From Anaerolineae bacterium (lineage in GTDB: Bacteria > Chloroflexota > Anaerolineae > Anaerolineales > Anaerolineaceae), in contig JACRAG010000307.1 in the NCBI GenBank assembly GCA_016213455.1, positions 1 through 10,892 of the forward strand: a stretch of 10,892 nucleotides of DNA, in the 5' to 3' direction. The translations under genes and the position numbers were made by a program. Within the stretch, counting starts at the first letter, position 1, and each line of letters opens with the position of its first letter. The notes beneath the pieces were generated by a model. It saw nothing but the letters and a program-made list of their open reading frames with translations. It was not told the DNA's origin and made no database searches. Below, piece by piece: positions 1 through 10,892 of this stretch.

Positions 1-377
1 CCGTCGAAGACGGTTTTCCAGTCTATCGTACCCGGCTGGATGGTGGCAAAACTCGACCCGGCGCGGTCGTAGATCACCTTGCTGGCGCGTTGAGCTGCGC
101 CGGTTTCCAGGAAATAAATTCCCAGGCGCTCTCCACCGCGCACAATATGCCGCGTACCCACCCCGGTTCCCCGCAGCAGGTTGAGACAGGCGTCCCCCAG
201 GTCATTCTGAGGCAGGCGGGTGACAAATTCCACCTCCTCGCCAAAATTCGCCAGAGAAACCGCCACGTTGGCTTCGCCGCCGCCATACGTCGCATCAAAA
301 GCGCGCGCCTGCGTAAAGCGCTGGAAACCAGGCGGGGCCAGCCGCAGCATGATCTCGCCAAAGGTAACGATTTTCAT
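1..377 (-). CDS. kdgK: 2-keto-3-deoxygluconate kinase-like PfkB sugar kinase, N-terminal part
   Basis: This is the first 125 codons of a carbohydrate kinase that runs off the left edge. It starts at the ATG at 377-375 (MKIVTFGEIML), 8 bp after the acetyltransferase stop. A GTGAGG Shine-Dalgarno lies about 6 bases upstream. The PfkB/ribokinase fold shows in the N-terminal VTFGEIMLRL strand and the GGGEANVAVSLANFG motif (residues 32-46), which is the first family signature. The stretch ERLGIYFLE (83-91) followed by SKVIYDRAGSSF (99-110), with Tyr103 and Arg105, is typical of KDG kinases rather than fructokinases or ribokinases; this segment lines the sugar-acid pocket in that family. The expected reaction is phosphorylation of a 2-keto-3-deoxy sugar acid to its 6-phosphate in the cytoplasm, ready for KDPG-type aldol cleavage. 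The upstream enolase-type dehydratase would make this kind of substrate. The ATP-binding and catalytic Asp region lies outside the window. The exact sugar-acid epimer is unknown. Confidence 0.88.
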   Translation of the reverse strand, partial: MKIVTFGEIMLRLAPPGFQRFTQARAFDATYGGGEANVAVSLANFGEEVEFVTRLPQNDLGDACLNLLRGTGVGTRHIVRGGERLGIYFLETGAAQRASKVIYDRAGSSFATIQPGTIDWKTVFD

Positions 378-385
378 GGTTCGCC

Positions 386-1672
386 TCACGGATTTCCCAC
401 AACATCCTGCCGTGGGCTCATGTTGTGGTAAGGGGTATAAAAGAAGGGCTGCGTTCGCGGAAACAGCGCCGCAATCATCGGACGAGCATGCGCCTTGACC
501 GTAATATCTGGCCAGGCGTCAAACAACTCATCCAACATCCGGTATCCCGACAGCAGGCGCAGGAAGGCGTCAGGCGGGATGCATAAATCGCCGCCATCGG
601 AGCCCATCGAGGAATCGACAAAACCTGACGCCGAAATCCGGACCAACTTACCCTGCTCAAAACAAAAAGCAAACGCTTCGCGGAACAGGTTGATGGTCAG
701 GGTGTACGTCAGCCCGGCCCACGCTGACTCCGCCAGGCGCTGCTCGAATACCGGGCGCATCTGGTTGAGGAAAGCCAGCAGATCCGGGACGCGCAGCAGC
801 CACTGACCGCCGGGGACGCACTGGCTGCCCAACTGGCGCGCCAGCGCCGCCAGCGGCAGGCTGCCCGGCCAGGCGATTTGCACCTGTTCCACGCCGCGAT
901 TTTTTAGCAGCTGCAGCAGCGCCATCGACTCGGCTGCGCCGCACAGGCTGTTTTCGCGGATGGTGACCGTCTTGCCGCTGCCGGTCAGCACCACATATCC
1001 AAACGGCTCGCCGGTTTGCGGATTGACCAACAGTTCAATGGGATGATGCGCCGCGTCCAGCAGATAGTGCCAGTATGCTGCGTCCCGCACAGCCGCCAGG
1101 GGCTGATCCGCATAGGCGCGTTGGTACAACGCCGCCAGGGTGGGGATGTCCGCCGCCTGGGCAGGACGGAGATGCACCACGGGGGCATCTCCCATCGCAA
1201 ATGAGGGGATTTTCCATGCCGGCAGCGCTTCAACCGTCTCGCCTTCAATGGTATAGGCATAACCATACTGGCGATAGTAGAAGGGGATGCCCCAGATGAT
1301 GCTCAAATCAAAGCCTCGCGCTTGCACCGCGCGCTCAAAATTTTTCATCTGCGCCCGCACCAGGCCGCGCCCCCGGTACGCCGGATGCGTCAGCACCATT
1401 TCGAGCTGGGCGACGCGCAGCTCCACGCCAGTAAAACGCACCGTCCACGGGATCAAACAGGTGGTCGAGACAATTTCTCCCGAACCGGCAGCCTCGACCA
1501 CCCAGAAATCCTCCAGGGTCATGCCGGGATGGTGGTGCAGCAGGCAGTCGCAGGTGGCTCCTTCACCGGGGTTATTATAGCGGGCATTGAAGGCGGCAAA
1601 TGCCTGGCGATCAGCTTCATCGCGCAGCGTGCGCAGCGTCAAGTCGTCGGCAATTTTTTGTTCATACGCCAT
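386..1672 (-). CDS. Eis-like GNAT N-acetyltransferase with C-terminal SCP2-like domain
   Basis: This is a 428-residue cytoplasmic acetyl-CoA-dependent acyltransferase of the enhanced intracellular survival (Eis) type: an N-terminal GNAT domain, a second degenerate GNAT fold, and a C-terminal sterol-carrier-like domain. The acetyl-CoA pyrophosphate loop is visible as YRGRGLV (about residues 99-105) after the strand AQLEMVLTHPA. The motif IPFYYRQYGY (129-138) matches the FYRRFGY-type element of the family. The last 95 residues (DLCIPPDAFLRLLSGY, then a Phe- and Pro-rich tail) fit the SCP2-like domain. I chose ATG 1672-1670 because GGAGGG lies 7 bases before it. The ATG 15 bases further upstream (1687) sits at the edge of that Shine-Dalgarno. 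The start forms a TGATG overlap with the stop of the glycosidase-like gene. Known Eis proteins acetylate amines of aminoglycosides or peptides. Why one is embedded in a sugar operon is unclear; an amino-sugar or polyamine acceptor is possible but unproven. Confidence 0.85.
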   Translation of the reverse strand: MAYEQKIADDLTLRTLRDEADRQAFAAFNARYNNPGEGATCDCLLHHHPGMTLEDFWVVEAAGSGEIVSTTCLIPWTVRFTGVELRVAQLEMVLTHPAYRGRGLVRAQMKNFERAVQARGFDLSIIWGIPFYYRQYGYAYTIEGETVEALPAWKIPSFAMGDAPVVHLRPAQAADIPTLAALYQRAYADQPLAAVRDAAYWHYLLDAAHHPIELLVNPQTGEPFGYVVLTGSGKTVTIRENSLCGAAESMALLQLLKNRGVEQVQIAWPGSLPLAALARQLGSQCVPGGQWLLRVPDLLAFLNQMRPVFEQRLAESAWAGLTYTLTINLFREAFAFCFEQGKLVRISASGFVDSSMGSDGGDLCIPPDAFLRLLSGYRMLDELFDAWPDITVKAHARPMIAALFPRTQPFFYTPYHNMSPRQDVVGNP

Positions 1673-3579
1673 CAATCCACCCTCCATCCTTCCGGTGGCA
1701 GAACGCCGGCGCCCGGGACGATCTTGTGGTCAATGCCTTTGTCGCCGCCGACGAAGTCCAGGCTGAAATTGGCAGCCACATGTGTACCATCCGCAAAGGC
1801 GCTTTCCTGAACATAGCCGTCTTCCGAGAGAATCTTGAAATGCACCATCTCCTGTTTACCAATGCGCCTGTGCAGGCGCGCAACCGGCAGAGCTTCTTTC
1901 AACGCAATCTGTACTTCAGGATCCTCAAAGCGGTATTTATACAGGAAGGTATCGGTGCCGCGCCCGCTATAACCGTACTGAGCGCCAAAGGGGAAGACAT
2001 CCGGCGGGCAGCCCATCAGGGCATCCAGAGCCGCCATCAGGCGCGGACGACCGCCGCCGTACTCGAAGAAACCGCCAGGCCAGGTGGTGCGCCCTCGCCA
2101 TTGATTGTTATAGCTATGCAGCTCATACCAGGAGTGGATAAGGCTGTCATGATAGACCAGCATGGTCAGCGGAACGGGCCAGAATGGCCACGGCCCATAC
2201 AATGGAAACGCCTTGACCGAGCCAAAATCATATTCCAGCGAATAGGCATCGTTGAAACTCTCTGAGCTGACCATGCGCCCGGCACGTTGGTCCACTTTGA
2301 AGACTTCCCGCACCCATTGGCGGTCTTCTGTGCGGCTGGCAGGCCGCCCCAGGTGGTGCGGGTGGTCCAGCGCATGGCATTCCAGTCCGGCGACACAGGC
2401 CAACACATCGAAATGATCCCAGGTCATCTCGGGAATGATGGAGGTGAGCGCTTTTTGCTGCCAGTCCTGAACGTAAGAGTGGCACATCAGGTACCACTGC
2501 TGGTCATCGATTTTCCAATGCGGCATGATCTGCCCGGCAGGGTCGCGGCGATACTGGCGCAGCACTTCCTCGGGGCTGACCGGCAGGGCTTCGTTCAACC
2601 AGGACCAGGGAGCCATGTCATAACCCAGCGACTTGATCGCCTCGATGGTCTCCCGGCTCAAATCGATCGCCGGAACGCCGCCCATATGAATATCCGGATA
2701 GTACATATTGAAGCGACCCGGGTAGAGCAGCGCGCGGTCAAACCCATACGCCTGTAATTTGCGGCAGCTTTCCACATAATCCACATCGTCCTTGCAGTAA
2801 CCGATGTAGACCATCAACGCGCCAAAGATGCGCTCCAGTGCGGGGCGTTCGGCGATTTTCTCATCCCAGGTGATGAAACGTCCCTGTTCCATGACCTTGC
2901 GGCGGTACTGTTTGGCAAGCGCCACAATATCCGCGTCGGTCATGTACAGGCGCACCACCCGCTCGTAGCGCATGGAACCCAACGACGCAAGCTGCACATT
3001 GGTCGCCCACATACGGTTGGCGCCGTCTTTGCCAAACCACCAGCGGCAGTCGTCTTTGCTTTCAGCGGTCATCAAAAGCCCGCCGCTCTCGGCCAGAAAG
3101 CCCGCGAACGACATGGAAAAGCCAACGTGCCCACCATCCGCGCGCATGGTATTCAATTCCGGGCCGCGCCCATCCCACAGCATACCCTGCATGATGGGCA
3201 GCAGCAGTTTCATCCGCTCCCCTTCGGGCTGGAAGGAACCCGGCAGCGTTGCAAATCCAATCTCAGCCGATGCCGGCACCGGCATACGCACTTCGACATA
3301 ATCGCGATGCAGGGAATAAACCACTTCCAGCCGGTCCTGGTTGGCAAGATACGTTACCGCCAGTTCGCCGGGTTTGTCCAATCGCGCCCCATCGGCGATC
3401 AGCAAGCCCGGTTTGGATTGCGGGTCACTGTAGGCGCCCTGGACGGCGTGTCGATCTCCATATCCCAGGCTCTGGGGATCCAGCAGCCAGCGTGTGCCGC
3501 GCTTGTTGTCGGCGAGGATCAGGGAATTTCCGGTTTCATCACAGGTGATGGTGGTCAGTTCGTTCGCAATGCGGATCAT
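1672..3579 (-). CDS. Putative TIM-barrel glycoside hydrolase (GH101/GH129-like architecture, no firm family)
   Basis: This is a 635-residue protein with no signal peptide or membrane segment, so it is probably cytoplasmic and acts on an imported substrate. Residues 1-210 are beta-rich and resemble the N-terminal sandwich of many glycosidases. Residues 245-480 have barrel-like alternation (IFGALMVYIGY, AYGFDRALLYPGRF, SLGYDMAPWSWLNE, WDHFDVLACVAGLECH). Aromatic motifs follow (YGPWPFWPVPL, 461-471) and then a beta-rich C-terminus. The order of an Asp in WDHFDV (Asp391) and a Glu in MVSSESFND (Glu440), 49 residues later, recalls the nucleophile and acid/base arrangement of the GH101/GH129/GH31-like clan; this assignment is mine. 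It begins at ATG 3579 with GAGAGGT just upstream and a 36-bp gap after the RraA-like gene. It sits between catabolic enzymes and an acetyltransferase. It could instead belong to one of the uncharacterised hydrolase-like DUF families of similar size. The fold class is moderately supported; the substrate is unknown. Confidence 0.55.
   Translation of the reverse strand: MIRIANELTTITCDETGNSLILADNKRGTRWLLDPQSLGYGDRHAVQGAYSDPQSKPGLLIADGARLDKPGELAVTYLANQDRLEVVYSLHRDYVEVRMPVPASAEIGFATLPGSFQPEGERMKLLLPIMQGMLWDGRGPELNTMRADGGHVGFSMSFAGFLAESGGLLMTAESKDDCRWWFGKDGANRMWATNVQLASLGSMRYERVVRLYMTDADIVALAKQYRRKVMEQGRFITWDEKIAERPALERIFGALMVYIGYCKDDVDYVESCRKLQAYGFDRALLYPGRFNMYYPDIHMGGVPAIDLSRETIEAIKSLGYDMAPWSWLNEALPVSPEEVLRQYRRDPAGQIMPHWKIDDQQWYLMCHSYVQDWQQKALTSIIPEMTWDHFDVLACVAGLECHALDHPHHLGRPASRTEDRQWVREVFKVDQRAGRMVSSESFNDAYSLEYDFGSVKAFPLYGPWPFWPVPLTMLVYHDSLIHSWYELHSYNNQWRGRTTWPGGFFEYGGGRPRLMAALDALMGCPPDVFPFGAQYGYSGRGTDTFLYKYRFEDPEVQIALKEALPVARLHRRIGKQEMVHFKILSEDGYVQESAFADGTHVAANFSLDFVGGDKGIDHKIVPGAGVLPPEGWRVD
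1680..1685 (-). promoter_or_regulatory. Ribosome binding site deciding the acetyltransferase start
   Basis: GGAGGG on the minus strand, 7 bases before the ATG at 1672. The alternative upstream ATG (1687-1685) overlaps this site, so using it would bury the Shine-Dalgarno. The downstream start also gives a TGATG junction with the preceding gene. Confidence 0.7.
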
Positions 3580-3615
3580 GAATACCTCTCTTTTGACGGT
3601 TTGAGCACGCCTGGT

Positions 3616-4290
3616 CTACAGCACGCCGTATCGGGCAAAAACTTCGCGAAGACTTTTTCCAGCCAGCAGTTCCTGCCTGGAAATGGTCTCTTTTCCGGCT
3701 TTCTCATGCGCCTGCGAGAGCACGATTTTTTCAATCGCTTGCGGAATCACAACCACGCCGTCGAAATCCGCAATGATCAGGTCGCCGGGATGGACCAGCA
3801 CTTCACCGCAAACCACCGGCACATCATAGGCCATCACCCGGGCGCGGCCTTTGCTATCCAGCGGTCGAATGCCGGTATAGTACACCGGGAAGTTCATATC
3901 AATGATGCGCACGCAGTCCCGCACCTGGGAGTCGCAGACGGTACCCACCGCGCCGTTGCGTTTGGCAATCGTGGACATCAACTCGCCCCAGGGCGCGTTG
4001 GTGCCGGCATAATCGGTTGAATGGATAACGACATCGCCAGGCTTGAGTGAATCCATCAAATCGAGTTCCAAACCGTAAGGGTCTTCCTCGACAATATAAT
4101 CGGTCTCCATCCAGCGCGCAGTCCGGGCGCGCCCGACAAACCCGCAATTGCGCATATCGGGCAGCAACGGGCGGATGCGCTGGTGCATGGCCTGGTTGCG
4201 GTAGCCCATTGAATCCAGAATATCGCAAATGACGGGCACATACAGGTTTTGTTTAACAAACTGAAAGATTTCGATATCCGTATCAAACAT
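3616..4290 (-). CDS. RraA-like / HMG-CHA aldolase family protein
   Basis: This is a 224-residue protein of the RraA-like superfamily, a swivelling beta/alpha fold that includes 4-hydroxy-4-methyl-2-oxoglutarate (HMG) aldolases and related oxaloacetate decarboxylases as well as the RNase E regulator RraA. The core signature is present: WGELMSTIAKRNGAVGTVCD (residues 101-120) followed by VRD (123-125), where Glu, Arg and Asp bind the metal and pyruvate moiety in the aldolases. LKPGDVVI and GDLIIADFDGVVVIP are also family-typical. I chose ATG 4290 because GGAG lies 6 bases before it. The ATG at 4302 also has a GGTGAG upstream and cannot be excluded, and an extended 249-residue reading starts inside the upstream gene. 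In this operon a pyruvate-releasing cleavage of a 2-keto-3-deoxy acid or a similar keto acid is more likely than RNase E control. The gene follows the UlaG-like gene by 20 bp. Confidence 0.85.
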   Translation of the reverse strand: MFDTDIEIFQFVKQNLYVPVICDILDSMGYRNQAMHQRIRPLLPDMRNCGFVGRARTARWMETDYIVEEDPYGLELDLMDSLKPGDVVIHSTDYAGTNAPWGELMSTIAKRNGAVGTVCDSQVRDCVRIIDMNFPVYYTGIRPLDSKGRARVMAYDVPVVCGEVLVHPGDLIIADFDGVVVIPQAIEKIVLSQAHEKAGKETISRQELLAGKSLREVFARYGVL

Positions 4291-4296
4291 AAAATT

Positions 4297-4300
4297 CTCC
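4297..4300 (-). promoter_or_regulatory. Ribosome binding site favouring the RraA-like start at 4290
   Basis: GGAG on the minus strand, 6 bases ahead of the ATG at 4290. A competing GGTGAG precedes the ATG at 4302, so the start is supported but not settled. The two choices differ by four residues. Confidence 0.5.
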
Positions 4301-4310
4301 ATGAGAGCAC

Positions 4311-5066
4311 TCACCAGATCAACGATTCCAGCGGCTGCAGGATTTTGACCGGGATGTCGGGACATTCCTGCCCTGCAAAATAAGTAAAGACCTGCGGATT
4401 TTCGGCATTCAGGGCCATCAGGTCATAATGGTTGGGGATGGCTGCCACGCGCGGCGTCACCACCTTTGCCACTCTCGCCGCAGCCTGCGCGCCCATGTTG
4501 CCATCCTTGCCGTTGATACAAGCCAGCACAACCTCAGCCTGCGGAGCGCATTTCAACAACAGCTCCGAAAATTCCGTGTCGGAGGTGTGGTAGATGCTGC
4601 GCCCGTTGTCAAATTGAATCCGGTAGCCGGTCGTGTCGATCACGTCCGCTTCGGAAGGCAAGGCATAGATGCCCGTGATGGTCGCCCCACGCAAGGTAAG
4701 CGTTTCGCCTGAATCAATCCGAATGATATTGACCGGCGGAATACCCAGGGCTGCCAGTTTTCGGCAGGCCAGCCGCGGCGCGACAAACAGGGTGTGTTCC
4801 TTGTGGCGATAGGCCTGGATCGTTTCCGGGTCGAGATGATCCAGGTGATCGTGCGTGACCACGTAAATGTCCACCCGCAGATCAGCGGGATCCAGCGGGG
4901 GCGGGTAAAGCCGCCCAAATTCTGGCGCAACCCTGGCTACCGAATCGCTCAAATAAGGGTCGATCGCAACACACAGCGTTTGTGAGCGAAAAATATATCC
5001 GGCCTGCCCCAGGAACCACAACCCGGCCTGATGTTCATCCAACGGAGTATCAAGAATGGATTTCAA
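4311..5066 (-). CDS. UlaG-like metallo-beta-lactamase-fold hydrolase (candidate lactonase)
   Basis: This is a 251-residue protein with the metal-binding motif THDHLDHLD (residues 71-79: His72, His74, Asp76, His77), the bridging Asp in IYHTSDTEF (Asp163), and a late His in IPNHYDL (His213). CINGKDGNMG (183-192) resembles the INGR-x-GN element of UlaG, the L-ascorbate-6-phosphate lactonase. The expected activity is two-metal hydrolysis of a sugar lactone or phosphate-bearing lactone in the cytoplasm. The start codon is TTG (5066-5064). There is no in-frame ATG before the fold core, and AAAGGTG lies just upstream, so TTG initiation is well supported. The gene overlaps the end of the epimerase-like gene by 17 bases, implying translational coupling. 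With a dehydrogenase upstream and a sugar-acid dehydratase in the same operon, opening a sugar lactone is the natural guess, but the amidohydrolase in this operon competes for that role. Confidence 0.82.
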   Translation of the reverse strand: MKSILDTPLDEHQAGLWFLGQAGYIFRSQTLCVAIDPYLSDSVARVAPEFGRLYPPPLDPADLRVDIYVVTHDHLDHLDPETIQAYRHKEHTLFVAPRLACRKLAALGIPPVNIIRIDSGETLTLRGATITGIYALPSEADVIDTTGYRIQFDNGRSIYHTSDTEFSELLLKCAPQAEVVLACINGKDGNMGAQAAARVAKVVTPRVAAIPNHYDLMALNAENPQVFTYFAGQECPDIPVKILQPLESLIW

Positions 5067-5784
5067 GTCTCACCTTTCCGGTAAAAATTGCACCTGGGTC
5101 GAGCCGCTGGCCTGCCGGTATTTCGCCGGCCGTGTTGGTGGCTTCCACGCCCAGGCAGAGCAGCGCCGGTTGGCAATTTGCGGGCCAACCGCCGCGGTTA
5201 ATCCACAATCCCCAGTACGGCTGATCCGTCGTGAACACCACCCGAAAATCCGAATACTGCAATTCCAGCGGGCCAAGGTTGCGCACAAAGATCTTTTGCT
5301 CACTACCGTTATGATCAAAATCACGATATAGGTCACCACTGGCCAGGCGCATTGTTTGCAGTTTCGCCACGTCCAGCAGACAGTGACTCGCCCACAGATA
5401 GTCGAGTGGAGTCTCCTGCAGGCAGATCGCCTGAAAGTCCATTTCCAGGCAGGGTGGCGCGGTAAGCCGGAAGCACCGCCGGGCATCAAAACGCGGCGTG
5501 CGCCAGATTTGCTCAACCCTGTCCTCCTGCCAATTCATTTCCGGCGGTAAACCGATCAGTTCACCCATCACAGGGCTGCCCGGATAGGGATCGATGGTTG
5601 GAAAACACTCGTCCCACCCGGCAGGCCGGAAGAACCTGCCGCCCAGGTCAAGCTCCTGATCCCACTCCTGCAGCACATTTGCCCGCCTGCCGGAAGCATC
5701 GAGCGGCATTCCAGCCAGATGCAGCCGCTCCAGCTTGCCATCCGGGTGGATTCCCAGGCAGTCGCGCAAAGAGAGCGAGACCAT
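5050..5784 (-). CDS. Aldose 1-epimerase-like (galactose mutarotase superfamily) protein, short
   Basis: This is a 244-residue, strand-rich, Trp-rich protein without signal peptide. It is recognisable mainly by AGWDECFPTI (residues 55-64), by WASHCLLD (131-138), where His134 falls where mutarotases keep a catalytic His, by WGLWINRGGWP (191-201), and by GVEATNTAG (212-220), whose Glu214 matches the general-base position. Canonical GalM proteins are around 340 residues, so this is about 100 shorter. Much of the loss seems to be at the N-terminus, where the substrate-binding Asn/Arg strand normally lies. It begins at ATG 5784, overlapping the dehydratase stop by one base (TGATG), with only a weak GGGTGG ahead, so it probably depends on coupled translation. 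Likely roles are anomer interconversion ahead of the C1-specific dehydrogenase, or a non-enzymatic or altered sugar-binding function. Fold assignment is moderate; catalysis is uncertain. Confidence 0.62.
   Translation of the reverse strand: MVSLSLRDCLGIHPDGKLERLHLAGMPLDASGRRANVLQEWDQELDLGGRFFRPAGWDECFPTIDPYPGSPVMGELIGLPPEMNWQEDRVEQIWRTPRFDARRCFRLTAPPCLEMDFQAICLQETPLDYLWASHCLLDVAKLQTMRLASGDLYRDFDHNGSEQKIFVRNLGPLELQYSDFRVVFTTDQPYWGLWINRGGWPANCQPALLCLGVEATNTAGEIPAGQRLDPGAIFTGKVRLEIHS
5069..5076 (-). promoter_or_regulatory. Ribosome binding site for the TTG-started UlaG-like gene
   Basis: AAGGTGAG on the minus strand, 2 bases before the TTG at 5066 (core AAGG 6 bases away), inside the end of the epimerase-like gene. 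It supports TTG initiation, because no in-frame ATG precedes the conserved part of the protein. Confidence 0.65.
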
Positions 5785-6953
5785 CAGGCCACCCGAAACC
5801 GGTTCAACACAGACTCATCCACTTCCACGCCCAGGCCGGGACCGTCTGGCACGGGAATTGTGCCGTCCACCATGTTGATTTTCTGTGTGCACAAATTGTT
5901 CAGCAGCGAAGCCGACGAAACGTTGTATTCGAGATAGAGCGAATCCATCAAATAGGCGTTCAAGTGCAGCGAGGCCGCTTTGAGGATGTCGGTCAGCCAG
6001 GCATGCGGCACGCAGTCAATCCCGCGCCGCTGCGCCATCTCGGCGATCTGCCTGCCCACCGTCAACCCGCCGCAGCGCGACAGGTCCGGCTGCAGGGTGT
6101 GCACCCCGCCTTCAACCGCCAGCCGCTCGAACTCGGCATAGCCGGACAACTGCTCGCCCGCGGCGATGCGCAGCGTGCGCGTGGAACGCGCGACTTCCGC
6201 ATACCCGCTGAAATTCTCCGGATGCAGAAAGTCCTCCAGCCAGAAGATGTTTTCGGCTTCCAACACGTCCACCAGACGCACCCAATCTTTGACGGCGCGC
6301 GGTCGGTAGGGGTTGTCATAGCCGATGCCATACCAGCCGCCATCCACCATCAGATCGACATCCGCGCCAGCCTCTGCGCGTGCAGCCTGCACCAGTTGTT
6401 GATCCAGCGCCAGGTTGTGCCCAAAAGCTCCCCAGCCGAATTTAATCGCCCGGAAACCCTGCGCCAGGTAGCCCGCCACGGCGCGCTTCATCGCATCGGG
6501 TGTGGGTCGAAAGAGGGTGGAAGCATAAGCCTTGACCCGGTCGCGATATTGCGCGCCCAGCAGTTTACACACCGGCTGCCCGGTGGCTTTGCCAGAGATA
6601 TCCCACAGGGCGATATCTGCCCCGGAAAGCATGTGCATACCGGCGCCCTGCCGCCCGTAATACCCCAGGTACCGGTACATCTTCTGCCACAGGCGTTCGC
6701 GCTCCAGCGGATCTTCGCCCACCAACGCGGCGCGCAGCGACTCGAAGCCGATCTGCCCGCCGGACGGCGCATCCACGATGGCTTTGCCCACCTGCGGCTG
6801 CGTCTCAACATCCGACCACCCGGTGATGCCCTCGTCCGTGCTGATCTTGAGCAGCGAAACAAAGCGCACGCCATGCGCCTCGACAGCTACCGAAGGATCG
6901 GGGTAATCTTTGCCGGTATCCAGGACAAACGCTTCAACGTTGGTGATTTTCAT
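5784..6953 (-). CDS. Enolase-superfamily (mandelate racemase/muconate lactonizing type) sugar-acid dehydratase
   Basis: This is a 389-residue protein with an N-terminal capping domain (1-130) and a C-terminal (beta/alpha)7-beta barrel. The three metal ligands are visible as Asp204 (LMVDGGW), Glu240 (WLEDFL) and Glu267 (AAGEQLSG). The His-Asp dyad of the mandelate racemase subgroup is Asp290 (LQPDLSRCGGLT) and His317 (VPHAWLTD). The second-strand motif, usually K-x-K, reads K171-F-G173, so only the first Lys is kept. The full dyad and three ligands point to an acid-sugar dehydratase: metal-assisted proton abstraction next to the carboxylate and loss of water to give a 2-keto-3-deoxy acid. That product matches the KDG kinase and RraA-like aldolase downstream. 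The start ATG follows the dehydrogenase stop by 8 bp, with AGGG upstream. The stereochemistry of the substrate cannot be inferred from sequence alone. Confidence 0.9.
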   Translation of the reverse strand: MKITNVEAFVLDTGKDYPDPSVAVEAHGVRFVSLLKISTDEGITGWSDVETQPQVGKAIVDAPSGGQIGFESLRAALVGEDPLERERLWQKMYRYLGYYGRQGAGMHMLSGADIALWDISGKATGQPVCKLLGAQYRDRVKAYASTLFRPTPDAMKRAVAGYLAQGFRAIKFGWGAFGHNLALDQQLVQAARAEAGADVDLMVDGGWYGIGYDNPYRPRAVKDWVRLVDVLEAENIFWLEDFLHPENFSGYAEVARSTRTLRIAAGEQLSGYAEFERLAVEGGVHTLQPDLSRCGGLTVGRQIAEMAQRRGIDCVPHAWLTDILKAASLHLNAYLMDSLYLEYNVSSASLLNNLCTQKINMVDGTIPVPDGPGLGVEVDESVLNRFRVA

Positions 6954-6961
6954 GCCGCGCC

Positions 6962-7975
6962 CTAAAAGACAAGAGAAACCTTCATGGCCTTTTCACGCCC
7001 GGTTTCGGCCAGGCTCAACGCCTGCTCAAAATCAGCGAAAGGCATGCGGTGGGTGATCAGATCCGAAATTCCCAACGCCGGGTTGGAAAGCATGTGCACG
7101 GCTTCGTCAAGCCGCTCCTGATCGTTGCAGGCGCCCAGGATTTCGATCTCCTTGATATGCAGCGAAAACAAATCCACGGGGGTCTCGCCGGGAATGGCGG
7201 AAAAGACCACCAGCCGCCCCTTGGGCTTCAGGCATTGAAAACATTCCCCAAATGCCTGGGCCGATCCAATTGCCAGAATGGCTGCATCAAAACCCGCGCC
7301 GCCGGCAAGTTTCTTGATCTCGGCGATGGGATCAGCCAGCGCCTTGCTGTTCAGCCGGATCGCCGAAGCGCCGGCAAACGAAAGCCGGAAATCATGCCGG
7401 CCCACGATGACGGTTTTGGACAGGTTGAAAGCCTCGGCAAGGCGGGCGATCAATACCCCAAACGGTCCGTCGCCGATGATCAACAGCGATTGTCCCGGCT
7501 GCAGTTTGGCCTGGGACAGCGCTTCCAGGCAAACGCTGACCGGTTCAGCCAGAGATGCCAGCGGGAAATCAACACTGTCGGGAACAACCCGGGCGCGATC
7601 CTGACGCACGACATAGTATTCTGCCATGGTGCCCTGCAGGTTAATCCCAAAATGGTCCATGTTCAGGCAGAGATGACGCATGCCGTCCTGGCAAGCCTGG
7701 CAGGTTCCGCACGGATGGACGGGATGGGTGGCAACCCGGTCGCCAACCTTAAAGCCCTGCACCGCCTTACCCACCTCCACCACCGTCCCGGCGCCTTCAT
7801 GTCCGATCACCACCGGCAGCTCAATCCCAAACGGATTGGAGCGGATATCGTTCAAATCGGAGGTACAGATGGTGGCAGCACCGGTTTTGATCAACAGCTG
7901 GTCATGCTTAATCGTCGGGATGGGGATATCGATCTGTTCGACCTGCCCAATCGCTTTCAATGATACGGCTTTCAT
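6962..7975 (-). CDS. Zinc-dependent medium-chain dehydrogenase (sorbitol/threonine dehydrogenase-like)
   Basis: This is a 337-residue NAD(P)-dependent alcohol or sugar dehydrogenase. The catalytic zinc site is represented by Cys37 (ICTSD), His59-Glu60 (GHEGAG) and Glu144 (LAEPVSV). The structural zinc site is complete: Cys89, Cys92, Cys95 and Cys103 in CGTCQACQDGMRHLC. The Rossmann motif is GDGPFG (168-173). The second nucleotide-binding strand ends VIVGRHDFR, with Gly-Arg where NAD-specific members usually have an acidic residue, so NADP use is possible. In this context it would oxidise a sugar (C1 to a lactone, or a ring or chain hydroxyl to a ketone) in the cytoplasm. It starts at ATG 7975, inside an ATGA overlap with the amidohydrolase stop, with GGGAG about 8 bases upstream. 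L-idonate, galactitol or threonine dehydrogenase activities are alternatives that sequence alone does not separate. Confidence 0.9.
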   Translation of the reverse strand: MKAVSLKAIGQVEQIDIPIPTIKHDQLLIKTGAATICTSDLNDIRSNPFGIELPVVIGHEGAGTVVEVGKAVQGFKVGDRVATHPVHPCGTCQACQDGMRHLCLNMDHFGINLQGTMAEYYVVRQDRARVVPDSVDFPLASLAEPVSVCLEALSQAKLQPGQSLLIIGDGPFGVLIARLAEAFNLSKTVIVGRHDFRLSFAGASAIRLNSKALADPIAEIKKLAGGAGFDAAILAIGSAQAFGECFQCLKPKGRLVVFSAIPGETPVDLFSLHIKEIEILGACNDQERLDEAVHMLSNPALGISDLITHRMPFADFEQALSLAETGREKAMKVSLVF

Positions 7976-8814
7976 AGAGTCACTCCCAATAGGTTGAGCG
8001 CATCGCGCCCCAAAATGTCAGCAATCACCTGATCCGAAACGCGCGGCAGGCCGCTGCTGCCAATGATCTGGTTGACATTGCGCAGGCCCTGGATCGAATC
8101 CGGCCCTTTGGCGAAAGGATAATCGCTGCCAAAGAGCAGCTTGTGGGTCACTTTGTATTCCTGCGCCGCAATCATGGTGTTATAGAACTGCCACGGGCGG
8201 TAATACAAGGCTGAAATATCGGCATAGACGTGCGGGTGCTTGCGGATCACCACCAGACATTCCTCAGAAAAAGGATGCCCACAATGCGCCAGGACCATAT
8301 GCAGCCCGGGGTATTGAATGGCTACTTCATCAAACAACCAGGGACGTCCATAATTCAATGGCGCATTATGGTTGAAGGTGGTGCCGGTATGAAACAAGAT
8401 TGGCAGACCGTTTTCCTGGCAGTAGCGGTAAACCGGGGCGCACATTGAATCGCGCGGGTCGAAACCGGCATATATCGGGCCCATTTTCACCCCGCGCAGT
8501 TTGAGGTGCTCTATTGCGTACTTCAACTCCTCGAAATGCTCCGGTTGGGTCGGATCACAGCAGGCAAACCCCACCAGTTTTTCGGGCGCGCGGGCCACAA
8601 ATTCGGCCACATAGTCATCCGGCACCCAGTAACCGGTGCGGCGGGCTTTTAGGCCGAAAACAACCACCTTTTCGAAAGCGGACATATCCTGGAGGAAAGG
8701 CTCCAGCCGCACGGTCAGGTCCAGCGGATAGCCGCGCGAAAGGTCCGCCTCGCGGATGGTCTCCGGCTGAAAGTGCAGGGCAGAGTCCCAGGCGTGGGTG
8801 TGTACATTTTGCAT
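7972..8814 (-). CDS. Amidohydrolase-family (COG2159-type) TIM-barrel metal-dependent hydrolase
   Basis: This is a 280-residue amidohydrolase 2 family protein. Metal and active-site positions are visible in order: HTH near the N-terminus (His5, His7), GVKMGPIYAGFDPRD (108-122), PILFHTGTT (138-146, His142), MVLAHCGHPF (173-182, His177) and LLFGSDYPF (226-234, Asp231). These fit the single-metal hydrolase, lactonase or decarboxylase branch that also contains L-fucono- and L-rhamnono-lactonases. In this operon a sugar lactonase or a hydrolase of a ring-opened intermediate is the likeliest role; decarboxylation of an oxidised intermediate is another. ATG 8814 is 3 bp after the second permease stop, with AAAGG ahead. 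The stop overlaps the dehydrogenase start (ATGA), so this enzyme is coupled to the dehydrogenase whose product it may act on. The length is typical of the family and no residues appear to be missing. Confidence 0.82.
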   Translation of the reverse strand: MQNVHTHAWDSALHFQPETIREADLSRGYPLDLTVRLEPFLQDMSAFEKVVVFGLKARRTGYWVPDDYVAEFVARAPEKLVGFACCDPTQPEHFEELKYAIEHLKLRGVKMGPIYAGFDPRDSMCAPVYRYCQENGLPILFHTGTTFNHNAPLNYGRPWLFDEVAIQYPGLHMVLAHCGHPFSEECLVVIRKHPHVYADISALYYRPWQFYNTMIAAQEYKVTHKLLFGSDYPFAKGPDSIQGLRNVNQIIGSSGLPRVSDQVIADILGRDALNLLGVTL

Positions 8815-8817
8815 CGC

Positions 8818-9672
8818 TTAACCTTTACTCCCCGAACGAGTCAGACCCTGGATGAAATAACGCTGTCCAAACAGGTAGATCACCAACATGGGCAGCATGC
8901 CCAGCAGCGAACCCGCCATGATGATGCCACGCCGGTCTATGCCTGTGCCGGAACGCCCGGTCAACTGCGACAGACCGCGCTGGACCGTGTAAAGCTGCGG
9001 ATCGTTCAGGTAGATGAGTGGACCAAGCAGATCGTTCCAGGACCACAGGAAGGTCAACAGTGCCACCGTCACCATGATGGGGATAGTCAGCGGGATAAAG
9101 ATCAACCAGTAGATTTTAAAGTAACTCGCGCCATCCAGTTGAGCCGCATCCATCATATCCTGCGGGATGCTCCGGTAAGCCTGACGCAGCAGGAAGATCA
9201 TGAAAGCGCCGCCAAAGAAGTTGGGCACAATCAAAGGCAGGAACGTGTCGATCCACTTTAATTTGGTAAAGATAAAGAAGGAAGGAATCATGGTGATGGC
9301 GTAAGGGATCATCAACGTCATCATCAGCATCGCAAAAAGGACGTTGCGCCCGCGGAAGTTCATCCGCGCGATGGCAAAGGCCGCCAGTGACGAAGAAATG
9401 CACATCCCGATCACCGAAAAGACAGCGATCACCAGGGTGTTCGTCAGGTAAACCGGCATCGGCATAACCTTGAACAGGCTGGCGAAATTGCCCAGGTAAA
9501 TGGGGGATGGTAGAAAACGCGGCGGCCATTCGTATTGTTGGACTGGCGTTTTAAAGGCTGAGCTGACCAGCCACAGGATGGGGAACAGGACGATGAAGGC
9601 CAGCACAACCAGTAAAGCATAATTCAAGGCTTGCTTTGAAAACCTCACCACGCGGGATCGGGCGACAATCAT
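8818..9672 (-). CDS. Sugar ABC transporter permease, MalG/UgpE type
   Basis: This is a 284-residue inner-membrane permease with about six hydrophobic segments (roughly residues 15-38, 76-102, 110-134, 145-163, 186-210, 250-270). The cytoplasmic EAA loop that contacts the ATPase reads MMDAAQLDGASYFKIYWLIF (173-192), followed by IPLTIP. The C-terminus RYFIQGLTRSGSKG is the usual end of carbohydrate permeases of the CUT1 family. I chose ATG 9672 over the ATG at 9696. It has a strong GAGGAGG 4 bases upstream and forms an ATGA overlap with the stop of the first permease, and the extra eight residues are not needed by the fold. It would pair with the first permease and a periplasmic or lipid-anchored binding protein to import an oligosaccharide or glycoside. 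No ATPase gene is in the window; a shared MsmK/UgpC-type ATPase encoded elsewhere is common for such operons. Confidence 0.95.
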   Translation of the reverse strand: MIVARSRVVRFSKQALNYALLVVLAFIVLFPILWLVSSAFKTPVQQYEWPPRFLPSPIYLGNFASLFKVMPMPVYLTNTLVIAVFSVIGMCISSSLAAFAIARMNFRGRNVLFAMLMMTLMIPYAITMIPSFFIFTKLKWIDTFLPLIVPNFFGGAFMIFLLRQAYRSIPQDMMDAAQLDGASYFKIYWLIFIPLTIPIMVTVALLTFLWSWNDLLGPLIYLNDPQLYTVQRGLSQLTGRSGTGIDRRGIIMAGSLLGMLPMLVIYLFGQRYFIQGLTRSGSKG

Positions 9673-10580
9673 ACGGCCTCCTCGTAAAACACCCACTTCT
9701 TTTCGAACTTGAAGTTCAGGTAGGTCAAGCCCAGGATAATAATGAAGACCATGTAGCCTACCGCGGAAGCCAACCCCATCCTTTGCAGGCGGAAGGCATT
9801 GGAGTAGATGTACATGACAATGGTTTGAGTCGCATTGGCCGGGCCGCCGCCAGTCATGATGAAAGGCAGGTCAAAAATTTGGACTGCATTAATAATACTG
9901 GTAACCAGAACAAAAAACGTGGTCGGCGAGAGCAACGGCAGTGTGATATTGACAAATTTTTGCCAGGCATTCGCGCCGTCGATCGAAGCCGCTTCGTAAT
10001 AGTCTTTGGAAATGTTTTGCAAACCGGCCAGAAAAATGACCGTATTAAAACCCAGGCTGGCCCAGATCGCCTCGATGATGAGCGCCCAGAGGGCATAGTT
10101 GGTATTCACCAGCCAGGGGATGGGCGCCAGCCCCAATAATTTCAAGAAACTGTTGATAATGCCCGCGTTGGCATCGTACATCCAGGTCCAGGCTAGCGCC
10201 GCGGAAGCCGTCGGCAAAATCACCGGAAGGAAGAACACGGCCCGGAAAAATTCTTTTCCTTTGAGCTGCTGGTTCAAGAGCAGCGCCACCAGCATGGCGA
10301 AAAATAAGCCAAATGATACCGTGCCCACCGCATACAGGACGGTATTTCGGAGGGTGGACACAAAGAAAGGATCGATGGTAAAGAGATCGCGGTAGTTTTG
10401 GAACCCCAACCATTTGGGGGACGTGATGAGGTTCCAATTGGTGAAGCTGACGTACAAAGAAAACAAAACTGGAAATAGCTGGAAGATCAGGAGCCCAAGC
10501 GCGGTTGGTAGAACAAACAACCAGGCATTGAATTCTTCTCGAATTCGCATACCGCCAGGCAAGGTCAAGCGTTTTAGCAT
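9669..10580 (-). CDS. Sugar ABC transporter permease, MalF/UgpA type
   Basis: This is a 303-residue inner-membrane permease with around six transmembrane stretches (approximately 20-44, 81-104, 115-136, 165-187, 222-240, 272-290). The N-terminal AWLFVLPTALGLLIFQLFPV is the classic first membrane segment of CUT1 MalF/UgpA-like permeases. The EAA loop YYEAASIDGANAWQKFVNIT (194-213) continues into LPLLSPT. GGGPANATQTIVMYIY (244-259) is another conserved family block. The length is normal, without the long MalF insertion of enterobacteria. ATG 10580 has AAAGGA about 7 bases upstream. It is 179 bp downstream of the binding-protein stop, the only sizeable gap in the window, and overlaps the second permease by four bases. 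It would form the heterodimeric channel with that permease. Confidence 0.95.
   Translation of the reverse strand: MLKRLTLPGGMRIREEFNAWLFVLPTALGLLIFQLFPVLFSLYVSFTNWNLITSPKWLGFQNYRDLFTIDPFFVSTLRNTVLYAVGTVSFGLFFAMLVALLLNQQLKGKEFFRAVFFLPVILPTASAALAWTWMYDANAGIINSFLKLLGLAPIPWLVNTNYALWALIIEAIWASLGFNTVIFLAGLQNISKDYYEAASIDGANAWQKFVNITLPLLSPTTFFVLVTSIINAVQIFDLPFIMTGGGPANATQTIVMYIYSNAFRLQRMGLASAVGYMVFIIILGLTYLNFKFEKKWVFYEEAV
9677..9683 (-). promoter_or_regulatory. Strong ribosome binding site deciding the second permease start
   Basis: GAGGAGG on the minus strand, 4 bases before the ATG at 9672. It lies inside the coding sequence of the first permease and downstream of the alternative ATG at 9696, so it supports the shorter 284-residue protein and the ATGA overlap. 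Confidence 0.75.
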
Positions 10581-10594
10581 CTGACATCCTTTTT

Positions 10595-10617
10595 CAAAAA
10601 TACAGGGAGAGGCTCAG
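10595..10617 (-). terminator. Possible leaky terminator/attenuator end of the long stem
   Basis: On the transcribed strand the 3' arm of the outer stem (CTGAGCCTCTCCCTG) is followed immediately by TATTTTTG, so a GC-rich stem ends next to five uridines. This resembles an intrinsic terminator, but the partner arm is about 100 bases upstream and the U-tract is short. Partial termination or a 3' end protecting the binding-protein mRNA is more likely than a full stop, because the permeases downstream have no clear promoter of their own. Confidence 0.35.
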
Positions 10618-10731
10618 TACCCATTCCATTTACTTTTGGTGGATGCTGTCAAATGAGCCTTCATTATCTGTAATTGCGAAGCATCCATCATATTGTTCTG
10701 AACGGGTACGCAGAGGCTGAGCCTCTCCCTG
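10603..10731 (-). repeat. Nested inverted repeat between binding-protein and permease genes
   Basis: The binding-protein to permease gap (10581-10759) holds concentric inverted repeats. The outer arms are 15 perfect bases, CAGGGAGAGGCTCAG (10603-10617) against its complement (10717-10731). They extend by a further nine pairs with one mismatch (10618-10626 with 10700-10708), leaving an 8-base bulge on the right arm. Inside is a second pair of 11-base arms with one mismatch (10637-10647 with 10680-10690), and within that a 5-bp hairpin (10652-10656 with 10661-10665, loop of 4). In the transcript the structure ends just before a short U-tract. The position, after a binding-protein gene and before its permeases, matches where bacteria often place mRNA-stabilising or partly terminating hairpins that keep binding protein in excess. 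The arms are clear in the sequence; the function is inferred. Confidence 0.7.
10712..10726 (-). promoter_or_regulatory. Local hairpin that competes with the long-range stem
   Basis: AGAGGC-TGA-GCCTCT is a 6-bp stem with a 3-base loop. Its bases 10717 and 10721-10726 are also needed for the outer arm that pairs with 10603-10617, so the two structures exclude each other. The local hairpin forms first during transcription, 33 bases after the binding-protein stop codon. The arrangement is like an attenuator, but no ligand- or ribosome-dependent trigger is visible. Confidence 0.4.
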
Positions 10732-10759
10732 ACTACACTACACGATCTAACCGGTAAAA

Positions 10760-10892
10760 TTATCCAACAAACGAAGCCCAGGCTTTGTCCAGTTCGGCAT
10801 TCATCGCCGCTTCAGAAGCTTCCAACGCCTGCCCCAGATCGCTGCCATCGTAGAAAGCTGCCATCCAGATCGGCTCGACCACACTCATCACC
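10760..10892 (-). CDS. ABC transporter sugar-binding protein (family 1), C-terminal fragment
   Basis: The last 43 complete codons of a gene entering from the right edge, ending at TAA (10762-10760). The readable tail (VVEPIWMAAFYDG, then LGQALEASEAAMNAELDKAW) has the amphipathic C-terminal helix and the repeated Ala/Glu pattern typical of family 1 extracellular solute-binding proteins, such as MalE- or UgpB-like proteins. The position directly before two CUT1 permeases makes this nearly certain. It would bind the imported sugar outside the membrane, as a lipoprotein or periplasmic protein depending on cell envelope. The ligand-binding lobes and signal sequence are outside the window, so specificity cannot be judged. 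Its promoter, and probably that of the whole operon, lies further right. Confidence 0.8.
   Translation of the reverse strand, partial: VMSVVEPIWMAAFYDGSDLGQALEASEAAMNAELDKAWASFVG

Follow-up and report, generated by a model that had tools for sequence, protein, structure and literature searches.

Does the set of genes that fills this contig serve a single catabolic pathway, and if so, which sugar would be consumed? The window, meaning the whole stretch of DNA analysed (10,892 nucleotides), takes up an entire contig, and the genome to which it belongs is incomplete (61.6%). Its gene set is probably a real but uncharacterised pathway of sugar degradation, since the core recurs in very different bacteria. 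No paper describing the set as a pathway was found in the open-licence literature, in keeping with the preliminary description, which had not recognised the combination.

Gene content and layout

Families were assigned by Pfam and NCBIfam searches of the window proteins; gene content, order and families are observations. All genes lie on the minus strand, as had been claimed. In order of decreasing coordinates the features are:

10762..10892, minus strand: probable ABC substrate-binding protein, C-terminal end (43 codons, running off the contig; assigned by its translation, which ends in DKAWASFVG and a stop, and by its place ahead of two CUT1-type permeases)
10597..10732, outer limits approximate, no strand assigned: dispersed palindromic intergenic element between the binding-protein and permease genes, outside the pathway
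9669..10580, minus strand: CUT1-type permease 1, 303 aa (NCBIfam GlcT/UgpA/MalF-like, below cut-offs)
8818..9696, minus strand: CUT1-type permease 2, 292 aa (BPD_transp_1, 4.4e-17)
7972..8814, minus strand: COG2159-type amidohydrolase, 280 aa, proposed lactonase (PF04909, Amidohydro_2, 1.8e-34)
6962..7975, minus strand: zinc-dependent medium-chain dehydrogenase, 337 aa, proposed C1 sugar dehydrogenase (ADH_N 1.2e-28, ADH_zinc_N 3.2e-16)
5784..6953, minus strand: enolase-superfamily (MR_MLE) putative sugar-acid dehydratase, 389 aa (PF13378/PF02746, MR_MLE N and C)
5050..5784, minus strand: mutarotase-fold protein, 244 aa (assigned by fold)
4311..5066, minus strand: UlaG-like metallo-beta-lactamase-fold hydrolase, 251 aa, accessory (PF12706, 5e-15)
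3616..4365, minus strand: RraA-family protein, 249 aa as listed, proposed class II pyruvate aldolase (PF03737, 3.6e-35; probable start 4290)
1672..3579, minus strand: GH129-like glycosidase, 635 aa, probably intracellular (structure comparison)
386..1687, minus strand: Eis-like GNAT acetyltransferase, 433 aa, partly linked (Acetyltransf_9, 1e-18)
3..389, minus strand: PfkB-family KDG-type kinase, N-terminal 129 aa, gene cut by the contig end (PfkB, 5.7e-14)

The earlier gene calls proved right: Pfam or NCBIfam backs each of them, and structure backs the 635-aa and 244-aa proteins. The tight overlap previously described holds for junctions of -55 to +36 bases, with the exception of a gap of 181 bases between the binding-protein tail and permease 1; the 55-base overlap listed for the UlaG-like and RraA genes is doubtful. 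This overlap is probably a start-site artefact, because the RraA gene of Phototrophicus methaneseepsis begins where the window has an internal ATG, at 4290. With the doubtful start set aside, the junctions from permease 1 on measure -28 to +36 bases. The CUT1 importer stands as a binding-protein tail and two permeases, because the sequence at the window's right-hand edge looks like a binding-protein C-terminus; an ATPase gene for it was not found in the window. Rfam gave no match at gathering thresholds. No enzyme of the window reaches a curated equivalog cut-off in NCBIfam, and substrate names are therefore unearned.

The intergenic element (at about 10,604–10,713) recurs with its exact pattern in 8 further places of the same genome, against 0 for a reversed control, and this recurrence speaks for correct binning of the contig. 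The glycosidase was missing from all four same-genus genomes and all 32 further same-family genomes, and was not found in the 60 nearest genomes; horizontal acquisition or loss (or, still, misbinning) is therefore possible.

Conservation of the gene set

Neighbourhoods were compared in 18 sets from 14 genomes at a match threshold of E<=1e-12. P. methaneseepsis (G378) keeps the same order of amidohydrolase, zinc dehydrogenase, enolase-type dehydratase, mutarotase-like protein, RraA and glycosidase. RraA, dehydratase, amidohydrolase, MDR dehydrogenase and a PIG-L protein are present in each of five Paenibacillaceae regions, which were chosen via their GH129-like gene. Among 396 genomes sampled from the class, 4 encode the full-length glycosidase and 8 the dehydratase (E<=1e-100), and all 4 glycosidase genomes also carry the dehydratase (hypergeometric 7e-8). 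When the window's own genome is left out, the 3 remaining glycosidase genomes all fall among the 7 dehydratase genomes of 395 (3.4e-6). For contigs of >=9 kb, among the matches listed, 11 exact lengths are common to 62 glycosidase and 42 dehydratase contigs versus 0.04 expected from jittered lengths, which means location on the same contig, not adjacency. Chance or artefact as the source of the grouping is ruled out by these linkage counts across genomes. The joint search with the dehydratase and the 635-aa protein, suggested in the preliminary description, was thus positive: the pair co-occurs in several genera and crosses phyla. Searches of plasmids returned one distant match each.

Linkage is looser in some relatives. 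In G338 and G370 the glycosidase lies on a different contig from the dehydratase and PIG-L genes. G228, G440 and G381 have no glycosidase and keep the dehydratase with RraA, two of them with the amidohydrolase too, so the dehydratase/RraA core may serve several sugars. A GH39-like partner was found in one of nine class genomes searched.

The UlaG-like hydrolase and the KDG kinase, both counted as pathway parts in the preliminary description, had no match at E<=1e-12 in any of the 18 sets and for this reason look like local additions. Its overall interpretation is supported in part, through the conserved set and the glycosidase-like 635-aa protein; these two proteins fall outside the core. Relatives of the UlaG-like hydrolase, only 32–38% identical, are encoded at other sites in 9 of the 13 other genomes. 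The kinase has a single 27% PfkB match (1.6e-6) near the amidohydrolase of G157 and a paralogue on contig C193 of the window's genome. The GNAT protein, only partly linked, has no relative at 1e-15 in the five Paenibacillaceae genomes.

The putative glycosidase and its partners

Neither Pfam nor NCBIfam matched the 635-aa protein at E<=0.001, and Pfam gave nothing even at E<=1. The PF11308 model likewise misses it at an E-value limit of 1, within which 23 of the 30 family members do match, the best at 1e-4. The structures most like the 635-aa protein are those of NagBb, an alpha-N-acetylgalactosaminidase, of ZgGH129 and of a Flavonifractor alpha-galactosaminidase. The resemblance to NagBb is one of sequence and full-length fold, at 22–23% identity, and the catalytic Asp435 named for NagBb in the accessible text of PMC5698469 aligns with D391, invariant in 30 of 30 rows. 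According to the same text, the second NagBb catalytic residue is lacking in DagB. Judged by sequence and fold comparison, the 635-aa protein is a predicted divergent GH129-like glycosidase, and the earlier label of putative glycosidase is borne out. At least 220 homologues of this clade were found at E<=0.001. No signal peptide was seen by eye, and the enzyme is probably intracellular.

PIG-L de-N-acetylases accompany the glycosidase in relatives. Homologues (E<=1e-40) were found in all three other class genomes with the glycosidase, and also in G389. None was found at that threshold in G228, G440, G381 or G157, so a PIG-L protein universal to the core is ruled out. The window has no such gene, and none was found elsewhere in its genome at 61.6% completeness; the UlaG-like hydrolase as a replacement would be a guess. 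The PIG-L proteins of relatives match curated models of the BshB1/MshB/Mca type, below cut-off. Enzymes of that type act on GlcNAc glycosides, not GalNAc.

A Gfo/Idh protein of P. lycopersici has as its best PDB match the GH109 alpha-N-acetylgalactosaminidase 2ixa (3.7e-45), and relatives of it at 37–38% identity adjoin the core in G228 and G440. These two score 33 and 36 bits against PF21252, a weak GH109 assignment, and four other Gfo/Idh proteins of the compared sets have no PF21252 match.

Candidate enzymes of oxidation, lactone opening and dehydration

The dehydrogenase matches best, among curated models, L-threonine 3-dehydrogenase (177 bits versus a cut-off of 458). It is 64% identical in P. 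methaneseepsis and 55–57% in G440 and G370, and the MDR proteins of the Paenibacillaceae sets are only 26–28% identical; the first oxidation step in Paenibacillaceae may therefore differ from that of the window.

The amidohydrolase has no NCBIfam match, and its sole PDB match is the uncharacterised 3irs. All 9 rows, that of the window among them, share H5, H7, H142, H177 and D231; we take these to be the metal ligands of the PF04909 superfamily, namely the HxH motif, another two histidines and an aspartate. Identity is 80% in P. methaneseepsis and 36–40% in the five Paenibacillaceae. In a 400-genome sample of the phylum 48 genomes match, one closely (G157, 67%) and the rest at 32–48%.

In the dehydratase, K171, D204, E240, E267, D290 and H317 are invariant (11 of 11 rows, window included), and D204, E240, E267, D290 and H317 are presumably the three acidic metal ligands and the His-Asp dyad of the MR type. 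A KxK motif with a second catalytic lysine marks one enolase-superfamily group. Here the second lysine is missing, all 11 rows reading K171-F-G173, and the enzyme is therefore not filed as KxK-type. The dehydratases of Chloroflexota-type genomes and of Paenibacillaceae are 42–44% identical. The best structure is 3sjn, whose deposited name gives no function.

The 244-aa protein has no Pfam or NCBIfam match at E<=0.001, none in Pfam even at E<=1 and none in the PDB by single sequence or profile; structure comparison gave a mutarotase fold, as met in the aldose 1-epimerase/mutarotase superfamily. RraA is 77% identical in P. methaneseepsis and 46–50% in Paenibacillaceae, and each of the 11 rows, counting that of the window, has R149-D150. 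HMG/CHA aldolases carry an acidic residue three positions after Arg-Asp; this RraA protein has none there. The Arg-Asp pair corresponds in kind to the active-site Arg and metal-binding Asp (Arg123-Asp124) of an RraA-type class II pyruvate aldolase, as given in the accessible part of PMC5065237.

Proposed pathway and alternatives

The oxidative sugar-acid logic of the operon can be held with good confidence. On balance we favour an operon for the breakdown of a small glycoside that is imported and whose sugar is oxidised via C1, dehydrated, and cleaved or phosphorylated. An alpha-linked, galacto-configured sugar is somewhat favoured, and an amino or N-acetylamino sugar as the substrate is a tentative reading. 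The glycosidase's leading structures, GH36 alpha-galactosidases among them, speak for this substrate class, as do the PIG-L homologues and the GH109-like Gfo/Idh protein of relatives and the surroundings of the closest permease relatives in the compared sets, which lie near GNAT, Gfo/Idh and DegT aminotransferase genes. The missing PIG-L gene of the window, the BshB1/MshB/Mca-type PIG-L models, the L-threonine dehydrogenase match and the acidic residue lacking in RraA count against the explanation. Each reaction, the order of steps and the substrate are deduced from the genes, together with the observed folds, conserved catalytic residues and cross-phylum linkage. A CUT1 ABC importer would take up the glycoside with its alpha-linked, galacto-configured non-reducing sugar, which the GH129-like enzyme, probably cytoplasmic, would free; in relatives a PIG-L de-N-acetylase would act before it or alongside it. 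The mutarotase-fold protein would equilibrate the anomers, the zinc dehydrogenase would oxidise C1 to a lactone, and the amidohydrolase would open it. The MR_MLE enzyme would then form a 2-keto-3-deoxy acid by removing water (plus ammonia from a 2-amino acid); RraA may split this product to pyruvate and an aldehyde, or the KDG-type kinase may phosphorylate it for a KDPG-type aldolase.

A bolder version, which we think rather doubtful, is an oxidative route shared across phyla, in which alpha-linked sugars with an amino or N-acetylamino group would be degraded without phosphorylation and without the usual deacetylase and deaminase, NagA/NagB. The amino sugar would become available for C1 oxidation through a PIG-L deacetylase together with a glycosidase of GH129-like (or GH109-like) type; the MR_MLE enzyme would take water and ammonia from the amino-aldonate, and the RraA-family aldolase would yield pyruvate and glyceraldehyde. 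The BshB1/MshB-like character of the PIG-L proteins of relatives would even allow a bacillithiol- or mycothiol-type GlcNAc/GlcN-alpha glycoside as the substrate in nature.

Alternatively, an alpha-galactoside would be cut and D-galactose turned through galactonate into 2-keto-3-deoxygalactonate, then cleaved or phosphorylated in a De Ley-Doudoroff type route, with the PIG-L and GNAT proteins as bystanders. GH36 alpha-galactosidases come next in the glycosidase's structural list, and the kinase fragment matches KDG/KDGal kinases (198.8 bits against a KHG/KDPG aldolase-kinase fusion model, whose cut-off of 700 applies to the whole protein). The top curated match of the dehydratase is galactonate dehydratase (NF010624, 179.4 bits); however, the cut-off of 311 is not reached. 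Moreover, the accessible texts characterise two enzymes of GH129 or GH129-like type, with alpha-GalNAc (PMC8106489) and 3,6-anhydro-D-galactose (PMC5698469) as substrates and not plain galactose. PIG-L genes are also found with the glycosidase in every one of the 3 other class genomes that have it and in all 5 Paenibacillaceae regions, and we judge plain galactose unlikely. The odds of the readings overlap, because this one shares most of our best explanation.

Rather than opening a lactone, the amidohydrolase might act as a hydratase or as a lactone isomerase, in a route like the final LigJ-LigK part of aromatic catabolism or the Gli-Gci part of galacturonate oxidation. The RraA protein does match the LigK/PcmE (HMG/CHA) aldolase model TIGR02798 with 87.8 bits, galactarolactone cycloisomerase Gci (4ggb/4hpn) is the dehydratase's second-best structure, and Gli belongs to the amidohydrolase superfamily in the accessible text of PMC6353982. 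Nevertheless, the LigK cut-off of 304.5 is far off, Pfam and NCBIfam detect neither a ring-cleavage dioxygenase nor a uronate-type dehydrogenase in the window, and the linked genes include a glycosidase and a sugar-type importer, all of which makes such a route quite improbable.

Several unrelated modules might also be packed together, with the importer and GNAT apart from the dehydrogenase-dehydratase-RraA-glycosidase genes and no single pathway. In G381 and G440 the permease and GNAT relatives do share a contig, apart from the dehydratase: permease 1 has relatives of 59% identity in G440 and 57% in G381, permease 2 of 55% and 54%, and GNAT relatives of 45–48% lie near these permeases. The UlaG and kinase genes, too, are not conserved neighbours. 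Against this stand the short junctions from permease 1 on, the core order kept in P. methaneseepsis, the core content kept in five Paenibacillaceae, and a GNAT relative (41–42%) directly upstream of the dehydratase in G338, and we give mere packing little credence. Least probable of all is an anhydrosugar route in which the GH129-like enzyme would free a 3,6-anhydrohexose, the dehydrogenase would form the anhydro acid and an MR_MLE cycloisomerase would give 2-keto-3-deoxygalactonate, the step sequence run by DagB, DauA, DauB, DauC and DauD in the accessible text of PMC5698469, with DagB (5opq) and DauB (5olc, sixth in the dehydratase's list) among the solved-structure relatives.

The preferred reading, C1 oxidation of an imported glycoside's sugar, would link functionally uncharacterised protein groups (the GH129-like clade, the 3sjn-matched MR_MLE clade, the COG2159 amidohydrolase and RraA) in one testable pathway common to Chloroflexota-type genomes and Paenibacillaceae. 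If true, it gives RraA proteins a concrete job beyond aromatic catabolism and RNase E control. The enzymes come with a short list of candidate substrates, and growth tests may be feasible because P. methaneseepsis, P. lycopersici and P. cymbidii carry the pathway genes.

Comparison with known systems

De Ley-Doudoroff and semi- and non-phosphorylative Entner-Doudoroff oxidation of galactose proceed by dehydrogenase, lactonase, aldonate dehydratase, and kinase or aldolase. The window would follow the same logic; unlike in those routes, the proposed lactonase is a COG2159 amidohydrolase and the proposed aldolase an RraA protein, a GH129-like glycosidase is present, relatives have a PIG-L partner, and the equivalog cut-offs are left unreached.

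The Agrobacterium Udh-Gli-Gci oxidation of galacturonate also pairs an amidohydrolase-superfamily lactone enzyme with a following MR_MLE enzyme; its substrates are galactarolactones, KdgD comes next, and the accessible text describes no glycosidase, RraA or KDG kinase (PMC6353982). The Flavonifractor plautii pair FpGalNAcDeAc and FpGalNase acts on the blood-group A antigen, with no oxidative route described in the part available; it pairs a deacetylase with a glycosidase (PMC12703440). A PIG-L protein is present in relatives of the window, not in the window.

The Zobellia galactanivorans carrageenan locus shares a GH129-like alpha-glycosidase, a dehydrogenase, an MR_MLE enzyme, a KDG-type kinase and an aldolase, whereas a lactonase, a mutarotase and RraA are not described there in the accessible text, whose authors propose DagB as a family separate from GH129 (PMC5698469). 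DagB is more distant from the window glycosidase than NagBb is. NagBb of Bifidobacterium bifidum (GH129) is only 22–23% identical, and no link to an oxidative pathway is described for it in the accessible texts; nevertheless, the likeness extends over the full-length fold and to D391 as the equivalent of catalytic Asp435 (PMC8106489, PMC5698469).

Gene order in the window and in Phototrophicus methaneseepsis

The window is the entire contig C182 of a genome that is 61.6% complete and lies in 594 contigs. The genes are on the minus strand; read from the right, they begin with the tail of a binding protein, permease 1, permease 2, the amidohydrolase and the zinc dehydrogenase. The MR_MLE dehydratase, the 244-aa mutarotase-like protein, the UlaG-like hydrolase and RraA follow, and then the 635-aa GH129-like glycosidase and a GNAT; a PfkB kinase, of which the initial 129 codons are present, comes last. 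P. methaneseepsis, a member of the class sample, carries the core genes in the window's order, with UlaG and GNAT not between them; identities are 80% for the amidohydrolase, 64% for the dehydrogenase, 85% for the dehydratase, 52–53% for the mutarotase-like protein, 77% for RraA and 66% for the glycosidase. After this core comes a divergent set encoding a GntR regulator, a binding protein, two permeases, a GH39-like enzyme, PIG-L and another RraA.

Elsewhere in the window's genome, a further KDG-type kinase (71% over 115 aa) is encoded on contig C193 (locus L131). Its neighbours are a zinc dehydrogenase, an aldolase of the class II fructose-bisphosphate type and a KDPG-aldolase-looking fragment recognised by eye. 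These genes form a separate set, into which the keto-deoxy acid of the proposed route could be fed.

An imperfect palindrome of roughly 95 bp lies at 10597–10732, between the binding-protein and permease genes, within an additional 15-bp perfect inverted repeat. Copies of the pattern CCCGTTC...GAACGGGT were found at 8 more genomic sites (reversed control, 0), and the element at another 3, on C112, C399 and C577; the window's copy is degenerate at one end. The element is MITE- or REP-like, and the 6 copies checked by eye have no obvious transport gene alongside.

Linkage of the glycosidase and the dehydratase

Among the 396 genomes of the class sample, a full-length glycosidase was found in 4 and a close dehydratase in 8, and all 4 glycosidase genomes carry both. 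In two of these four, G338 and G370, the genes are on separate contigs of fragmented genomes. Three further class genomes (G095, G153, G310), whose GH129-like matches are weak and partial, gave no close dehydratase. Contigs of at least 9 kb were also paired by identical size, which shows the same contig and not adjacency: among the matches listed (glycosidase, best 120 of 220; mutarotase-like protein, 60; dehydratase, best 120 of 3102), at least 11 contigs are common to glycosidase and dehydratase, at least 5 to glycosidase and mutarotase-like protein, and at least 5 to mutarotase-like protein and dehydratase, with 0.02 to 0.04 expected for each pair. Named records with glycosidase relatives are an Anaerolineales bacterium, a Thermoflexales bacterium, Paenibacillus lycopersici, P. 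cymbidii and an uncultured bacterium.

In the Paenibacillaceae family sample of 245 genomes, a GH129-like match of whatever strength occurs in 32, and a strong match in 4. Five regions, chosen through the presence of a GH129-like gene, all encode RraA (46–50%), the dehydratase (41–43%), the amidohydrolase (36–40%), an MDR dehydrogenase (26–28%) and PIG-L. The GH129-like protein itself is 51–56% identical in four and 30% in the other; in G575, about 8 kb separate RraA from the end of the GH129-like gene. Downstream of the first GH129-like match in the Paenibacillaceae genome G630 lies a second (L059:15810–17726; 29%) with one TAA stop inside, owing either to decay of this copy or to a sequencing error.

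Core genes, second layer and apparent local additions

The core consists of the dehydratase, RraA and the amidohydrolase, usually with an MDR dehydrogenase; the glycosidase and PIG-L make up a second layer around it. Dehydratase neighbourhoods that lack the glycosidase hold an importer, a GH109-like Gfo/Idh protein, amidohydrolase, dehydratase and RraA (G228); GH109-like protein, amidohydrolase, dehydrogenase, dehydratase and RraA (G440); dehydratase and RraA on a 3.8-kb contig (G381); or dehydratase and PIG-L (G389). G157, reached via the amidohydrolase, has amidohydrolase and RraA. PIG-L homologues (E<=1e-40) are present in 3/3 other glycosidase-bearing class genomes and in G389, adjoining the dehydratase in G338 and G370; at this threshold none was found in G228, G440, G381 or G157, or in the window's own, incomplete genome.

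UlaG and the kinase had no match at E<=1e-12 across the 18 neighbourhood sets; a PfkB match (27%, 1.6e-6) lies close to the G157 amidohydrolase. Relatives of the window's GNAT (1e-15) occur in 8 of the 14 genomes and in 0/5 of the Paenibacillaceae, but the G575 and G514 sets hold GNATs of different make-up. A GNAT is directly beside the dehydratase in G338. At L128 and L129 (G381, G440), GNAT relatives (45–48%) lie near permeases 54–59% identical to the window's. DegT aminotransferases and Gfo/Idh oxidoreductases accompany them, a combination that characterises amino-sugar or aminocyclitol metabolism. The GH39-like partner was found in 1/9 class genomes searched (P. methaneseepsis only) and in 4/5 Paenibacillaceae sets.

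Two side observations were made. An Anaerolineales contig (L010) carries a GH29-like protein (by eye), PIG-L and the glycosidase, with a short GH39-like remnant between them. In the phylum sample, nine genomes (G701, G738, G746, G775, G789, G810, G824, G915, G926) have three amidohydrolase relatives each (37–45%); in 8 of the 9, two of the three share a contig, 2–4 kb from each other.

Proposed route and substrate

In the alignment, the metal ligands D204, E240 and E267 of the MR_MLE enzyme and its D290-H317 dyad are invariant across both groups, and the KxK motif is without its second lysine; this pattern fits a dehydratase that uses the His-Asp side of the active site. The amidohydrolase retains 5/5 metal-ligand positions. 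RraA is without the acidic residue three positions after its Arg-Asp, a feature expected of HMG/CHA aldolases. The Arg-Asp itself, the active-site pair of HMG/CHA aldolase (PMC5065237), is retained. From the conserved residues of these three enzymes we infer a route in which a glycoside would be imported and cleaved inside the cell, C1 of the sugar oxidised, the lactone ring opened and the sugar acid dehydrated, with aldol cleavage, or phosphorylation instead, as the last step.

The glycosidase's structural list points to a substrate of alpha-galacto configuration. Amino sugars are suggested by what relatives carry: PIG-L, the GH109-like protein (in P. lycopersici, 3.7e-45 against 2ixa), GNATs and aminotransferases. 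This second reading is weaker, since the curated matches of PIG-L are BshB1/MshB/Mca-type models, under cut-off, and since PIG-L is missing from three of the genomes without the glycosidase (G228, G440, G381) and from the window. A logic of deacetylating and then cutting does exist, as the deacetylase and galactosaminidase of F. plautii, acting in that order (PMC12703440), illustrate.

Relation to known pathways

None of the window's enzymes reached a curated equivalog cut-off, and no description of this gene set was found in searches of an open-licence library, which omits most subscription papers and all preprints. De Ley-Doudoroff oxidation is one of the closest known pathways. The closest also include anhydrogalactose catabolism in Zobellia (PMC5698469) and the Udh-Gli-Gci pathway of Agrobacterium (PMC6353982).
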